Positions 10,389 to 20,863 of a stretch of DNA of 26,810 nucleotides are shown one piece after another (the first letter of the stretch is position 1; each line of letters opens with the position of its first letter). The translations under genes were made by a program, and so were the position numbers. The stretch lies in the IMG/VR virus record IMGVR_UViG_3300047678_000272, positions 1 to 26,810 of that record, one strand, 5' to 3'. The stretch comes from a virus. A model generated the notes under the pieces. The model was not told the origin of the DNA and searched no databases. It saw nothing but the letters and a program-made list of their open reading frames with translations.

Positions 10389-11402
10389 ATGGAAACAAAA
10401 GTAACTATTAAAGATATTCACGATGATTTTAAAAACGTGGATGTAAACTTAGCCAAGAATCTTATTAAGCCAAGTGAGGCTGAGATGAGCAGAATAAATA
10501 AAATGAGAGAATTGGGTTTCACCAATTTCAAAGAAGCAAAAGAGCTTGATCCTAAAAAAATTAAAGCACAAAATGATAAGTTAGCTCTTATTGAAAAATA
10601 TAGAGTGTTGGCTCCTCAGTATAAGTTCATTCCTAAAGAAGATTGGATTGCATTGTGCAATAAATATGGTTTGATTTGGGGCGACTCAAATCTTTACACA
10701 GAATCAATTCCTGTTGATATACAAGAAAAAGTTATTGCATTTCATATTGCTGATAATTCAGTGCTAGCTGTTAAAGATGTAGAAGCTGATGAAGATTATG
10801 ATGATTGGGATGAGCTTGAACATTTCTCAATAAACAATACAGGATTTAAAACTCCAAAAGATTTTAGAGATCTTGAATGGAGAACTATGAAAGGTGAAGT
10901 TATAAAAGTTAGAAACATTGAAGATAGTCATTTGTTAAATTTGTTGAATTTCACTTTGTCAAATTTAAACAGTTCTGTTAGAAATATGTATAGCGTATTT
11001 GTTTCTGAATTTCTTTGCAGACAAGGAGTGATTTCGTATACAGATAATGGCATTGAATTTGAAGTAAACACTTCAAGAAAAAGATTGCCATTTTGGATAG
11101 GTTCAGTTGATGTTAAAGAAACAACTCAAGCAATTGAGAAATCTTATGCAGACCCCACTACAATGAAAATTGACCCAAGATTTGTTATTTGCGCAGCTAA
11201 ACACATGTTTAATTTGACAAAAAAAACAATTGATTCTAAGACAATGGAAATACTTCCAATTCCAAGACCAATTCCAAAGAGAAATTTCTTTATGGATGAT
11301 GATCCTATTGTTGCTGTTGAAACAGTTGATGGGTTCTTAATGGTTGGCGCTTGGGGTGATGAAGCAAGTCATAGCGAAGCAATAAACCACTTCCTTAATT
11401 AA
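10389..11402 (+). CDS. Orphan protein (337 aa)
   Basis: A soluble acidic protein. The N-terminal helix region (DIHDDFKNVDVNLAKNLIKPSEAEMSRINKMRELG) is followed by YKFIPKEDWIALCNKYGLIWGDSNLYTESIPVD, a pattern I cannot assign, and an Asp-rich stretch (DVEADEDYDDWDELEHF). The C-terminus has repeated Pro (PIPRPIPKRNFF). No catalytic motif is seen. Only a weak promoter-like sequence precedes it; it may be transcribed from upstream through the endonuclease insertion. It converges on the J-domain gene with an 8-bp overlap. Confidence 0.7.
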   Translation: METKVTIKDIHDDFKNVDVNLAKNLIKPSEAEMSRINKMRELGFTNFKEAKELDPKKIKAQNDKLALIEKYRVLAPQYKFIPKEDWIALCNKYGLIWGDSNLYTESIPVDIQEKVIAFHIADNSVLAVKDVEADEDYDDWDELEHFSINNTGFKTPKDFRDLEWRTMKGEVIKVRNIEDSHLLNLLNFTLSNLNSSVRNMYSVFVSEFLCRQGVISYTDNGIEFEVNTSRKRLPFWIGSVDVKETTQAIEKSYADPTTMKIDPRFVICAAKHMFNLTKKTIDSKTMEILPIPRPIPKRNFFMDDDPIVAVETVDGFLMVGAWGDEASHSEAINHFLN

Positions 11403-17683: not shown

Positions 17684-18499
17684 ATGATGCATATTTTAAA
17701 CCACATTAAAGATCAAAAGTTTAATAATTTTGATGAGTGTTTACCTAAATTAAGAATGGTAAAGGATGATGTTAAAAATCTTCATTCTAGCACAAACTGG
17801 GCAGTACAGCGTAGATTTGAAATGACCACAAGTCAATTAAAATTTTTAATTGAACAATATTCTGTTTTTTCTAGAGAAGCCATACACATGCTTGTAGATG
17901 CTATGATTAGAAATCATGATTGGCCAGAACTTTTTAAAGAGCTTCAGAACAATATCAATGAAGAAAAAGGCGAAGAAACAAAAGGTATTCCTCATTTAGA
18001 AATAATGAGAAGAGGATATGAGAAGGATCTTGGAATTTTAACCGATTCTGTTATTCCTTGTTTAATTACTCAATCTTTTATAAACAAAATGAATAACATT
18101 TTCAATAATAATGATAATGCATATTCAGCAGGTGCGCTTCTAGCATTTGAAGGTGTGGCAATACAAGAGTTTCATATTGTTGATAAAATAGTAAAACAAT
18201 ATGATGTAGCAAGCAAACTCCTCAATGTTCAACACGATGATAAGTTAACTAATTATTATATAAATGGGCATAAGGATTTTGAAATTGGGCATGAAGAACA
18301 TTTAGCTAATTCAATACGACCTTATATCAATCAAGGAAATATATCTAAGATGATTGTTGGTTATCTTGATGTATGCTTTGTAATGAATTTATGGTGGGAA
18401 CAACTTATGTTAGAGTCTATGCAAATAAGTTTTTCAGAGGAAAATAAATTAAACGACATAGAAGAATTTAACGTGGAATCAGCCATATTTAATAAATAA
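17684..18499 (+). CDS. Haem-oxygenase-like diiron (HDO/TenA/PqqC-fold) protein (271 aa)
   Basis: An all-helical protein with the spaced ligands of haem-oxygenase-like diiron oxidases: INEEKGEETKGIPHLEIM (Glu...His, near 92-108), FEGVAIQEFH (near 163-172) and HKDFEIGHEEHL (near 207-218). The pattern resembles CADD, UndA and related iron-containing redox enzymes. It would oxidise a small molecule using O2. Coupling to an NMT1-type importer recalls thiamine-precursor loci, where TenA (same fold) accompanies ThiXYZ, but TenA is not a diiron enzyme. The substrate is unknown. Last gene of the cassette; I see no clear terminator. Confidence 0.75.
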   Translation: MMHILNHIKDQKFNNFDECLPKLRMVKDDVKNLHSSTNWAVQRRFEMTTSQLKFLIEQYSVFSREAIHMLVDAMIRNHDWPELFKELQNNINEEKGEETKGIPHLEIMRRGYEKDLGILTDSVIPCLITQSFINKMNNIFNNNDNAYSAGALLAFEGVAIQEFHIVDKIVKQYDVASKLLNVQHDDKLTNYYINGHKDFEIGHEEHLANSIRPYINQGNISKMIVGYLDVCFVMNLWWEQLMLESMQISFSEENKLNDIEEFNVESAIFNK

Positions 18500-18531
18500 A
18501 AAAACATTTACTTTATTTAGAAAATATTTTA

Positions 18532-18538
18532 TATTTAT
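18532..18538 (+). promoter_or_regulatory. TATTTAT late-type promoter element
   Basis: TATTTAT 24 nt before ATG 18563. Confidence 0.4.
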
Positions 18539-18562
18539 TACTAAACCTAATAAATATAAACT

Positions 18563-18766
18563 ATGAGCAAACCAATCGTAATTGAAGGCTATTGTATGAA
18601 ATTAAAAAGTAAACAACCCTTCGTAGATCCTATTATTTCTAAAAACGCAAAAGGCGGATATGTATGTAAAGGAGAAACTAAAGATGGACATAAGATGTGT
18701 GCCATCATGTCAAAAGAAAAAGCTGAAGCTGCAGTAGCAAGCGGAGTAAAAAAAGAAGGATTTTAA
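18563..18766 (+). CDS. DUF5679-like small protein (67 aa)
   Basis: EGYCMKLKSKQPFVDPIISKNAKGGYVCKGE followed by GHKMCAIM resembles the small phage DUF5679 fold, which usually has two CxxC knuckles (YCxKCK ... CPxCG). Here three single Cys remain and the CxxC pairs are lost, so zinc binding is doubtful. Function unknown. The gene has its own TATTTAT element, suggesting late expression. Confidence 0.65.
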   Translation: MSKPIVIEGYCMKLKSKQPFVDPIISKNAKGGYVCKGETKDGHKMCAIMSKEKAEAAVASGVKKEGF

Positions 18767-18829
18767 TTTTTTTCGAACTGACTTTCAAATAGTTAAAAGA
18801 AAAGTGAAAAAAAAGTTTGCAGTTACATG

Positions 18830-18856
18830 TAACTTTTACTAACTTTGTTCGTATAA
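18830..18856 (+). promoter_or_regulatory. Class 1 phage promoter
   Basis: TAACTTTT-N12-CGTATAA driving a single 40-codon ORF. A partial copy GTTAC/TAACTTT overlaps. Confidence 0.8.
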
Positions 18857-18903
18857 ATTATCAAGAAAAGAAAAATTATAACTATTTAAATTAAAGAACA
18901 CCG

Positions 18904-19026
18904 ATGAAACAAGTAATTACATATTCAATAAACATGCCAGCGATGCCGAAAGGCGCTGCAGGGATGGGGTATGCTCCAGCGGATTATAGCGGGGTAGCGA
19001 GTATGTTAACTTTATTTGGATCATAA
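18904..19026 (+). CDS. 40-residue microprotein
   Basis: Reads MKQVITYSINMPAMPKGAAG, continues MGYAPADYSGVASMLTLFGS and stops. It is small, Met/Gly/Ala-rich and uncharged after the start, with no membrane segment of full length. It has a dedicated class 1 promoter, a roughly 40-nt leader and a strong terminator, so it looks like a real one-gene unit rather than a chance ORF. Function unknown; the size suits an anti-host peptide or a regulator. Confidence 0.6.
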   Translation: MKQVITYSINMPAMPKGAAGMGYAPADYSGVASMLTLFGS

Positions 19027-19053
19027 TGGTTTAAAAAAATATTAAAAGTTAAG

Positions 19054-19088
19054 AAACTCGCTCCCAAAAAGAGCGAGTTTTTTTTGTT
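19054..19088 (+). terminator. Intrinsic terminator
   Basis: AAACTCGCTC-loop-GAGCGAGTTT followed by T8, one of the strongest in the window. It also separates the microprotein from the tRNA array. Confidence 0.9.
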
Positions 19089-19112
19089 CATTGAATTATT
19101 GGAATTTTATTT

Positions 19113-19240
19113 TGGGGATTAGTGTAACGGTAGCACAGTAAAAAAAGCTCATACAAGAAATCTCTGGCAACAGTAGTGATGCAACGAGTTACATCGCAAT
19201 TCATAAATGCCTAGTCCAAGTTCGAATCTTGGGTCCCCGA
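19113..19240 (+). tRNA. tRNA (CAT), interrupted by a structured insertion
   Basis: 5' exon: acceptor TGGGGAT, T8-A9, D arm GTGT-AACGGTA-GCAC, A26 (19113-19137). 3' exon: loop TTCATAA (anticodon CAT at 19202-19204), variable TAGT, T arm CCAAG-TTCGAAT-CTTGG, acceptor GTCCCCG. Between them lie about 55 nt that fold around the hairpin CTCTG-GCAA-CAG-T-AG (19162-19176) and CTC/GAG. The anticodon stem as read has only three pairs, so exact splice points are uncertain. Confidence 0.75.
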
Positions 19241-19250
19241 CAAAAATTAT

Positions 19251-19345
19251 CAGGAGTTGCAAGAGTTGGTTTAATTGGCTAGTCTTGGAAACTAGTGTGG
19301 GGACTCAGTTGTTCTCCACCGAGGGTTCGACTCCCTCACTCCTGA
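19251..19345 (+). tRNA. Class II tRNA with anticodon loop CTTGGAA (TGG; Ser-like body)
   Basis: Acceptor CAGGAGT/ACTCCTG, three-pair D stem CAA/TTG with GG in the loop, anticodon stem CTAGT/ACTAG, a 7-bp variable arm GTGGGGA/TCTCCAC, T arm GAGGG-TTCGACT-CCCTC. The long arm is that of Ser/Leu/Tyr tRNAs, yet in the only well-paired register the anticodon is TGG (Pro). Reading GGA (Ser) needs a shifted, poorly paired stem. An endonuclease insertion follows it. Confidence 0.85.
19326..19345 (+). repeat. 20-bp direct repeat, copy 1 (tRNA 3' end)
   Basis: TTCGACTCCCTCACTCCTGA, identical to 20131-20150. Together they bracket the minus-strand endonuclease gene. Confidence 0.95.
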
Positions 19346-19411
19346 GGCAATCAAAGTTGAAGTACCTGTACGTGGTGATTGCTACACGCTGATTAATCAG
19401 TGACCAAATTT

Positions 19412-20095
19412 TCAACAATTGTTCTTTGATTTATTGTTTATGATATCTATTATGATATTAAGGAATTCTATACTAGTGCTTTCTTTAAAGTATTTTTGTT
19501 TAGAAACATCTATAATGCATAGTGAGATACTATTTTCTAAACAAGCTTTAAACTTGCGTTGATCATTATTTTGTATTTGATCTAATTTTTCAGAACCATA
19601 TATTGGTTCATAATGAAAAATACCGTTAAGTTCAAATGCGAGTTTTAAAGATGGAATGTAAATATCAAGTTCAGAATTAATTGCTTCCTTTTTGTTGAAA
19701 TCAATATTTAATTGAGGGTAATAAGAAGTAAGTTTTTGTTCTAAATAAATTTCTAGTTTTGATCTTTTTGTGCCAATTTGTTTGTGAGTATTCTGATATG
19801 TGGCTGCGCAAGATCGAGAACAGAAGTGGTTCTTTGTTTTTTTGATTTGACTGTTTTTTTTAATAAAAATTGTATTACAATTTGAACAAGGTGTTTGTAT
19901 GGTATTGTTTTTAAAGTTAGCTGCACATTTTAAGTTGCAAAATTTAACAGAACCTGCCTTTGATGTTTTGTTTAAAAAAGAATTAATATATTTTTTCTTT
20001 TTATAAAAAACATTAGAACATGAATAACATTCAAAAGGTAAAAGTTCGTTTACTTTAGATAATGTAAATTTGTCTTTAGAGTAAAGTGGTTTCAT
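19412..20095 (-). CDS. Homing-type endonuclease: zinc fingers plus VSR/DUF559-like nuclease (227 aa)
   Basis: The N-terminal half has paired Cys knuckles (CYSCSNVF, FCNLKCAANF, CSNCNTIF, FCSRSCAATYQ), probably DNA-binding. The C-terminal half is a PDDEXK-type nuclease of the VSR/DUF559 branch: SKLEIYLEQKL, SELDIYIPSLKLAFELNGIFHYEP with the E...ELD...ExN...H pattern. A minus-strand TATTTAT lies 13 nt before the ATG. The gene sits between a complete class II tRNA and a second copy of that tRNA's last 20 bp, so it entered at the tRNA 3' end and left the tRNA intact. Confidence 0.82.
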   Translation of the reverse strand: MKPLYSKDKFTLSKVNELLPFECYSCSNVFYKKKKYINSFLNKTSKAGSVKFCNLKCAANFKNNTIQTPCSNCNTIFIKKNSQIKKTKNHFCSRSCAATYQNTHKQIGTKRSKLEIYLEQKLTSYYPQLNIDFNKKEAINSELDIYIPSLKLAFELNGIFHYEPIYGSEKLDQIQNNDQRKFKACLENSISLCIIDVSKQKYFKESTSIEFLNIIIDIINNKSKNNC

Positions 20096-20108
20096 AAGTT
20101 ATTTTTAT

Positions 20109-20115
20109 ATAAATA
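20109..20115 (-). promoter_or_regulatory. TATTTAT late-type promoter element
   Basis: Minus-strand TATTTAT 13 nt before the endonuclease ATG at 20095. Confidence 0.5.
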
Positions 20116-20130
20116 GTTATAAATTTAATT

Positions 20131-20150
20131 TTCGACTCCCTCACTCCTGA
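20131..20150 (+). repeat. 20-bp direct repeat, copy 2 (displaced tRNA 3' end)
   Basis: Exact copy of 19326-19345, preceded by unrelated sequence. Best explained as the original 3' end of the tRNA left behind by the insertion. Confidence 0.9.
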
Positions 20151-20223
20151 CACAGAAACGGGTTCTCTATTTAGACCTCTATATGATGACGATTGTATAA
20201 GTTTGTTTAGCGACCCGTATGAA

Positions 20224-20296
20224 CGAGATGTGGCGCAATTGGGAGCGCACGTGCTTTGGGAGCACGGGGTTGCAGGTTCGAGTCCTGTCATCTCGA
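20224..20296 (+). tRNA. tRNA-Pro (TGG)
   Basis: Acceptor CGAGATG/CATCTCG, D arm GCGC/GCGC, anticodon stem CGTGC/GCACG, loop TTTGGGA and T arm GCAGG-TTCGAGT-CCTGT. All stems are complete. Confidence 0.95.
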
Positions 20297-20309
20297 CAAA
20301 AAATAAAAT

Positions 20310-20397
20310 GGTGGTGTAGTTCAGTTGGAAGGCGCAAGCCAAGAATGCTCCCCTGTCACGGGAGAGGTCGAGGGTTCGAGTCCCTTCATCACCGCCA
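20310..20397 (+). tRNA. tRNA-Asp (GTC) with hairpin inserted in the D loop
   Basis: Acceptor GGTGGTG/CATCACC, D stem GTTC/GAAT, anticodon stem CTCCC/GGGAG, loop CTGTCAC, T arm GAGGG-TTCGAGT-CCCTT, discriminator G and encoded CCA. Relative to a normal Asp D loop (AGTTGGAA) there are 12 extra bases (20331-20342) with GGC-GCAA-GCC, a GNRA-capped mini-hairpin. Confidence 0.9.
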
Positions 20398-20400
20398 TAG

Positions 20401-20410
20401 GTTGGAGAAC
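20401..20410 (+). repeat. GTTGGAGAAC spacer repeat, copy 1
   Basis: GTT-GGAG-AAC mini-hairpin, followed by an A/T stretch and ACTCAAA, ahead of the second tRNA-Asp. The same unit recurs before the third Asp gene (near 20540) and in the mini tRNA-like sequence (near 24045). Confidence 0.6.
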
Positions 20411-20423
20411 TTTAAACTCAAAC

Positions 20424-20497
20424 GGATTGTTAGTAGAGCTGGTCACAATGTCGCCCTGTCACGGCGAAGGTCACGGGTTCGAGTCCCGTACAGTCCG
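20424..20497 (+). tRNA. tRNA-Asp (GTC), second copy
   Basis: Acceptor GGATTGT/ACAGTCC, anticodon stem TCGCC/GGCGA, loop CTGTCAC and T arm ACGGG-TTCGAGT-CCCGT. D stem GTAG/CAAT has one mismatch. No CCA. Confidence 0.9.
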
Positions 20498-20539
20498 CAC
20501 AAGTAGTATTTGGTCTACTGTACACTATCAAAATCCAAC

Positions 20540-20550
20540 GTTGGAGAACG
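20540..20550 (+). repeat. GTTGGAGAAC spacer repeat, copy 2
   Basis: CGTT-GGAG-AACG followed by TAAAACTCAAATGG. With copy 1 it shows that a spacer+tRNA-Asp unit was duplicated. Confidence 0.6.
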
Positions 20551-20562
20551 TAAAACTCAAAT

Positions 20563-20639
20563 GGTGTTGCAGCATATTGGTGTATGATGCCTCCCTGTCA
20601 CGGAGGAGATTGCGGGTTCGAGTCCCGTCGATACCGCCA
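20563..20639 (+). tRNA. tRNA-Asp (GTC), third copy
   Basis: Acceptor GGTGTTG/CGATACC, anticodon stem CCTCC/GGAGG, loop CTGTCAC, T arm GCGGG-TTCGAGT-CCCGT, discriminator G plus encoded CCA. Position 8 is C instead of T and the D stem pairs poorly. Confidence 0.85.
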
Positions 20640-20682
20640 GAATGTTTTTTGTATTTTTTTTCTATAATAAAAAAGTACCTAT

Positions 20683-20753
20683 GGGAAAACGGCCAGGGTA
20701 GCCAGGAACGTCTGTAAAACGTAGCCAAGAGAGTTCGATTCTCTCTTTTCCCA
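20683..20753 (+). tRNA. tRNA (GTA, Tyr) with a short class I variable region
   Basis: Acceptor GGGAAAA/TTTTCCC, D stem GGC/GCC with loop CAGGGTA, loop CTGTAAA (GTA at 20714-20716) on stem ACGT/ACGT and T arm GAGAG-TTCGATT-CTCTC. The variable region is only GCCAA, whereas bacterial tRNA-Tyr is class II. T8 is replaced by C. Confidence 0.8.
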
Positions 20754-20760
20754 CACATTG

Positions 20761-20798
20761 AGGTGCGCCAACGCAGGAGAGTTGGGACAGTCTGTAAA
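20761..20798 (+). pseudogene. 5' half of a tRNA-Tyr-like gene, cut after the anticodon loop
   Basis: AGGTGCG, a D-like arm CCAAC-GCAGGAGA-GTTGG (20768-20785), then GTCTGTAAA, which matches a Tyr anticodon loop and stops there. No 3' half follows. The fragment's last 9 bases pair with TTTATAGAC (20103 bases upstream-numbered as 20803-20811 in the next line of the stem), forming a hairpin. The HNH gene and then an intact tRNA-Tyr lie downstream. Confidence 0.5.
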
Positions 20799-20840
20799 AT
20801 AATTTATAGACAATTTGGTTCTTTTCTTGTTTTTTATTAA

Positions 20841-20847
20841 TATTTAT
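20841..20847 (+). promoter_or_regulatory. TATTTAT late-type promoter element
   Basis: TATTTAT 16 nt before the HNH start at 20864. Confidence 0.5.
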
Positions 20848-20863
20848 AATTAAAATACGTATT

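Follow-up and report, generated by a model that had tools for sequence, protein, structure and literature searches.

A covarying RNA module inside an interrupted tRNA(CAT) and around putative permuted tRNAs of large phages

Interrupted tRNA(CAT) and Its Inserted Module

The window analyzed in this study (the whole 26,810-nt stretch of IMG/VR record IMGVR_UViG_3300047678_000272) contains a tRNA(CAT) gene interrupted by 57 nt, and this insert belongs to an undescribed family of phage RNA modules, small and structured, which carry tRNA-related or other cargo in several topologies. The covarying family is absent from Rfam 15, occurs on dozens of large phage contigs, and points to permuted tRNA genes in phages. 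In the explanation that we consider best, and to which we give even chances, the module would not be spliced out but remain part of the RNA, serving as a display or an additional arm, and the composites would be tRNA look-alikes or armed tRNAs, most likely directed against tRNA-attacking host systems. Retention would make the module a novel route to tRNA look-alikes and a candidate counter-defence, and removal would make it a splicing element of roughly 57 nt, for which we know of no counterpart in bacteria. The retrieved parts of the literature, in a search that left aside preprints and most subscription journals, held no report of permuted phage tRNAs or of the module.

The tRNA(CAT) and its insert comprise the following elements:

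19113..19138, + strand: 5′ part of tRNA(CAT), with acceptor 19113–19119, D stem 19122–19125/19133–19136, and A19137 G19138
19139..19195, + strand: inserted RNA module, with A-rich strand 19139–19146 and TACATC 19190–19195
19147–19150 (GCTC) with 19186–19189 (GAGT), + strand: P2 of the insert, not favoured in the free RNA fold
19164–19166 (CTG) with 19171–19173 (CAG), + strand: P1 of the insert, capped by GCAA
19162–19163 (CT) with 19175–19176 (AG), + strand: CT/AG pairing around bulged T19174
19196..19242, + strand: 3′ part of tRNA(CAT), with GCA 19196–19198, anticodon CAT 19202–19204, and TGCCT 19208–19212
19216–19240, + strand: further elements of the 3′ part, with T arm 19216–19232, acceptor 3′ strand 19233–19239, and discriminator A19240

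The first-pass annotation had described an interrupted tRNA(CAT) with intact acceptor and T arm, which is confirmed by the seven pairs of 19113–19119 with 19233–19239 (five Watson–Crick and two GU) and by the T arm at 19216–19232 with its 5-pair stem; a 4-pair D stem and G18G19 are also present. The distance from D arm to T arm is 99 nt, compared with 43–57 nt in 13 other normal-order genes of the window measured by the same script. With the insert present, the gene is called neither by ARAGORN nor by Rfam at the gathering score. ARAGORN calls tRNA-Met(cat) when the insert is left out; on joined sequences it accepts many junctions and is too tolerant for choosing one. The annotation had further placed the interruption outside the anticodon loop, at 19138–19193, with a 26/27 junction equal to the breakpoint of a permuted tRNA-Gly downstream. 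An extra stretch between the D arm and the anticodon loop is indeed found, but its limits are 19139–19195 (57 nt), and the junction shares its place with that of the tRNA-Gly but is best put at 28|29, two pairs into the anticodon stem. In the joined form, A19137 G19138 pair with C19211 T19212.

Without 19139–19195, the lowest-energy fold of the window RNA is a cloverleaf with a 9-nt anticodon loop, the alternative for this arm being an A31–A39 mismatch. The unjoined RNA has no cloverleaf as its lowest-energy fold, with probabilities of 0.002 for P2 and 0.08 for the D stem; the shuffle z-score of this copy is only −1.6, and minimum free energy folding of the unjoined RNA does not support the module. 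The exact 5′ part has no match in IMG/VR, and among 988 ARAGORN calls in the loci, the nearest uninterrupted tRNA shows only distant similarity to the tRNA(CAT) body. An ordinary tRNA with a long arm was rejected because the insert matches a family found elsewhere.

Two further module copies were identified in the window:

23006..23144, + strand: second copy, around a circularly permuted tRNA-Gly(TCC) (32.5 bits, E 1.8e-5)
23006 to about 23035, + strand: module 5′ part of the second copy, followed by the tRNA 3′ half to 23079 and a linker to 23084
23085–23112, + strand: tRNA 5′ half of the second copy, followed by the module 3′ part
23156..23230, + strand: third, free copy with a short hairpin as cargo (49.9 bits, E 1.7e-9)

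Two short strings of the insert recur in both of these copies, and the annotation was right that the insert and the permuted tRNA-Gly at about 23006–23144 have a scaffold in common. The downstream copies have the module open at P1 with the cargo inside its loop, whereas the order is reversed in the tRNA(CAT), with the tRNA outside and P1 closed by GCAA. The three window copies are circular permutations of one layout. The copy in the tRNA(CAT) is the inside-out form, in which the tRNA keeps its own ends and the GNRA-capped module protrudes from the anticodon stem at the step from pair 28:42 to pair 29:41.

The Module as an RNA Family

The consensus of the module consists of P1 with a bulged U, a TAGTAA/TGGCAA core, P2, and TACTTC opposite an A-rich strand, with a size of about 57–80 nt without cargo; the window insert shows the same core as the family alignment (A3). 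An initial covariance model (R1) was built from seven free copies, in which eight of 12 pairs change on both sides. IMG/VR was scanned with patterns, and the covariance search, which covered 87 of 188 loci, gave 133 matches at E ≤ 0.01, the seven training copies included, on 65 phage contigs or records. The alignment has 118 distinct rows, in which each of the 12 pairs shows changes on both sides and 96.7% of cells are paired, a level reached by none of 500 shuffles. Because this alignment was fitted to the structure, slid controls matter, and these were 41–58% paired. Across the family, the pair beside the bulged U switches between AG/CU and GG/CC.

By our own estimate, the matches of the first pattern scan were close to chance expectation and many loci were coding sequence; we therefore relied on structure and covariation. 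A chance motif was considered and set aside on these two grounds, the structure script having found 130 copies over the loci and four on the reversed sequence. The counts of topologies given below are biased because the IMG/VR scan patterns came from early examples.

No credible Rfam 15 family was identified on the module, either in a gathering scan of the window, in an E ≤ 5 scan of 18000–26810, or in an E ≤ 10 scan of two free copies in another locus (L020); the Rfam matches that overlap the module are weak and far below cut-offs. These comparisons show the module to be an RNA family with two covarying helices and conserved single strands that is unlisted in Rfam 15.

Many large phages carry the module in tRNA-rich regions. 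The 634-kb phage LR745206, discussed as a relative of a marine megaphage in PMC9723777, has four copies at E ≤ 0.01, one of them around a permuted tRNA-Cys, and LR756504 has none at this threshold. BLAST of four module regions against named phages returned LR745206 itself or nothing. One record with several copies (IMGVR_UViG_2681813498_000001, L171) has an IMG number unlike those of the metagenome records in style; it may be isolate-derived and perhaps offers a host that can be grown in the laboratory. On the bacterial side, the module was found in none of 296 genomes from the phylum of a Cytophagales MAG (G008), in a search run without a positive control, and a pattern scan of genome contigs gave two matches, both coding-like and with no module by eye.

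Cargo and Topologies

The cargo of module copies ranges from short hairpins to tRNA bodies that lack an acceptor stem, and it also includes permuted tRNAs, which are opened either at 28|29 or within the variable loop. When the script copies were sorted by a strict T-arm test, 36 were permuted tRNAs with an acceptor, 16 had a T arm without a recognized acceptor, one was a tRNA in normal order, and 77 lacked a T arm, some of these being missed tRNAs or false. A circularly permuted tRNA, with its 3′ half first and the acceptor rebuilt, is represented by 23006–23144 and its relatives (the 36 script matches) and not by the window tRNA(CAT), which has normal order. Permuted tRNAs in three loci (L122, L140, and L151) have the loop ATCATAA and a similar body. 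Ten copies share one acceptor-less body composed of a short D arm, an anticodon arm, and a T arm followed by TGTT, and their loops would read as at least eight different anticodons.

A search for the module inside normal-order tRNAs yielded 22 raw rows and none on reversed sequences; after 15 rows were dropped (two of identical sequence and 13 neighbouring copies or chance), seven distinct true cases were left, namely the window gene, two in L141, and one each in L037, L153, L124, and L164, so the arrangement is not due to chance. P1 is GNRA-capped in five of the seven; judged by eye, several of the other cases appear to have the module within or close to the D loop.

In two different phages, module copies (L009 2578–2709 and L010 2943–3072) each contain a whole normal-order tRNA whose anticodon, TTA, would decode the stop codon UAA. 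Three other copies (L120 7433–7756, L121 8455–8756, and L132 6069–6368) have cargo of about 250 nt, short strings of which also occur in the part of 23S rRNA around ATAACGGTCCTAAGGTAG and CACGAATG. A 23S-like identity of this cargo is supported neither by Rfam nor by a lax whole-cargo alignment, which was no better than shuffles, and this leaves only short motif agreement.

The module looks like a display, since its cargo includes anticodon hairpins, whole tRNAs placed in several orientations, and bodies that lack an acceptor and differ by exchanged anticodons. Phage tRNAs counter host tRNA-cleaving defences, which makes a role of the module RNAs as decoys or shielded tRNAs an obvious guess. 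A broader and tentative proposal, possible rather than probable in our estimation, is that large phages carry a modular RNA display, in which one scaffold would present hairpins, acceptor-less bodies, permuted tRNAs, and perhaps 23S-like pieces as decoys or shields against host enzymes attacking the translation apparatus, the window tRNA being its inside-out form.

Retention or Removal of the Module

The main alternative, somewhat unlikely in our view, is that the module is an intron-like element whose excision would yield an ordinary tRNA; in the permuted cases, this would resemble permuted intron–exon circularization followed by normal end processing. The halves of 15 of 15 permuted tRNAs form exactly five Watson–Crick anticodon-stem pairs across the junction, as rejoining needs, with positions 27–28 always from the 5′ half and the junction at 28|29 in every case (four of 19 rows, L094, L111, L167, and L173, had been dropped because the loop was misread); swapped halves also give five pairs in 50 of 210 combinations. 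Conserved module letters adjoin the junction. In 14 of 36 permuted cases, the acceptor is followed by N-CCA, as though genuine tRNA ends were produced, and the window RNA folds as a cloverleaf when joined and not when unjoined.

The position of the junction relative to conserved letters argues against removal. Measured from TACTTC|G, the junction that restores five pairs lies at −2/−1 in nine of the permuted tRNAs, at 0 in two, and at +3 to +5 in four; the tRNA thus uses module letters in some copies, whereas in others these letters are surplus. Self-splicing at a fixed site was rejected because no cut position fits all copies; splicing with a site measured on the tRNA could still account for the drift. 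Hairpin, acceptor-less, and minihelix cargos could not be turned into tRNAs by splicing, and tetraloop-capped acceptors also speak against it: in seven of 36 permuted cases, the acceptor is closed by a linker of at most 5 nt, GCAA and TTCG included. The roughly 73-nt spliced product that the first-pass annotation expected is thus not established, since the joined cloverleaf and the fit of the halves in 15 of 15 agree with it but the lack of a single cut site and the non-tRNA cargos do not.

Ligase families bear on both sides of this question. Among 12 large records, RtcB was found in one, PF09414 in eight, and PF09511 in two; at least one of the three is present in seven of 10 module-bearing large records, as an intron would favour, and none in the other three. 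The large records may be fragments, however, and a ligase could come from the host. The drifting junction, the non-tRNA cargos, the short-linker acceptors, the GNRA-capped P1 of five of the seven normal-order copies, and the patchy ligases together lead us to favour, though not strongly, retention of the module as a display or extra arm over an intron, a reading that we put at about an even chance of being right.

Two other explanations are each improbable. The module itself might be the functional element, for instance by binding a protein or marking tRNA operons for processing, with the tRNAs as passengers that chanced to enter its loop. This would suit the 53 distinct free copies that carry short hairpins and the sequence GTTCTTTGAAA, which we take to be boxA-like, upstream of several copies, but permuted tRNAs are not made by simple insertion, and 10 of the 53 short hairpins have a 7-nt loop resembling an anticodon loop together with a stem of three or more pairs (3.6 expected; two of 500 shuffles as high). 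It is similarly doubtful that module copies fell into decaying tRNA copies to give composites without function. The odd anticodon arm of the window tRNA (9-nt loop or A–A mismatch) and several other irregular tRNAs nearby would fit decay, but the helices covary across the family, and a related tRNA(CAT) in another contig (L037) preserves the architecture of the window gene although its acceptor differs by a compensatory change (A6:T67 to G6:C67) and its module has GG/CC in place of AG/CT.

Other Features of the Window

A second interrupted tRNA is located at 26546–26697, with a CAT-containing anticodon arm, the acceptor AGCAACG/CGTTGCC, and about 75 extra nt without the module core between the D arm and the anticodon arm; its distance from D arm to T arm is 120 nt by the same script. 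An apparent tRNA-Leu(TAG) at 24504–24682 has acceptor strands CGGTATG/CATACCG about 170 nt apart and, also by eye, a long insertion 3′ of the anticodon arm. The gene at 19250–19346, called Pro(TGG) by ARAGORN, has a long variable arm; its body resembles the Ser type, and its anticodon appears to have been exchanged. The tRNA(GTC) at 20310–20394 contains a small hairpin (GGCGCAAGCC) in its D loop. The segment GCCGAG...CTCGGCTCCA at 24021–24068, with the hairpin CTGTTGGAGAACAG, resembles a shrunken tRNA, and its string GTTGGAGAAC recurs 5′ of two tRNA-Asp genes near 20400 and 20540.

Four putative mobile endonucleases lie among the tRNA genes (19412–20095, 20864–21535, 23369–24010, and 24841–25617), of which one is HNH, two are GIY-YIG-like, and one has no Pfam match. 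The region 420–1631 encodes a 403-aa protein with a weak relation to class I arginyl-tRNA synthetases (PF00750) that is about half identical to proteins of LR745206 and LR756504; the search for protein relatives returned none for the DUF3865 protein at 17684–18499 or the protein at 10389–11402.

Comparison With Known Systems

Group I introns of bacterial tRNAs resemble the insert in lying near the anticodon, but the insert is only 57 nt, and no group I core or any intron family was found in 18000–26810 of the window at E ≤ 5. Permuted two-piece tmRNA is also a permuted tRNA-like RNA, and the RNAs described here may likewise consist of two pieces after processing, whereas the module family includes many isotypes and free copies; the only RF04321 match in the window is sub-threshold and lies elsewhere (22747–22804).

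Among known systems, GOLLD comes nearest: according to PMC12286853, this large phage RNA can hold tRNAs in its linker. GOLLD and ROOL resemble the module in being structured phage RNAs near tRNA islands without known function; they differ in that they are large (many GOLLD exceed 800 nt; PMC12286853) and have Rfam models, in contrast to the module of about 57–80 nt with no Rfam match. Length and the Rfam scans of the window and of 18000–26810 accordingly place the module outside both families.

As described by Soma (2014; PMC3978253), the permuted tRNA genes of algae and archaea resemble those reported here in having the 3′ half first, a short linker, and halves that rebuild one tRNA. The junctions given there are 20/21, 37/38, 50/51, and 59/60, none of which corresponds to the 28|29 of the present permuted tRNAs. 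Unlike the algal and archaeal genes, those found here open at 28|29 or in the variable loop, occur in phages, and are always accompanied by a conserved module, some of whose cargos are not whole tRNAs.
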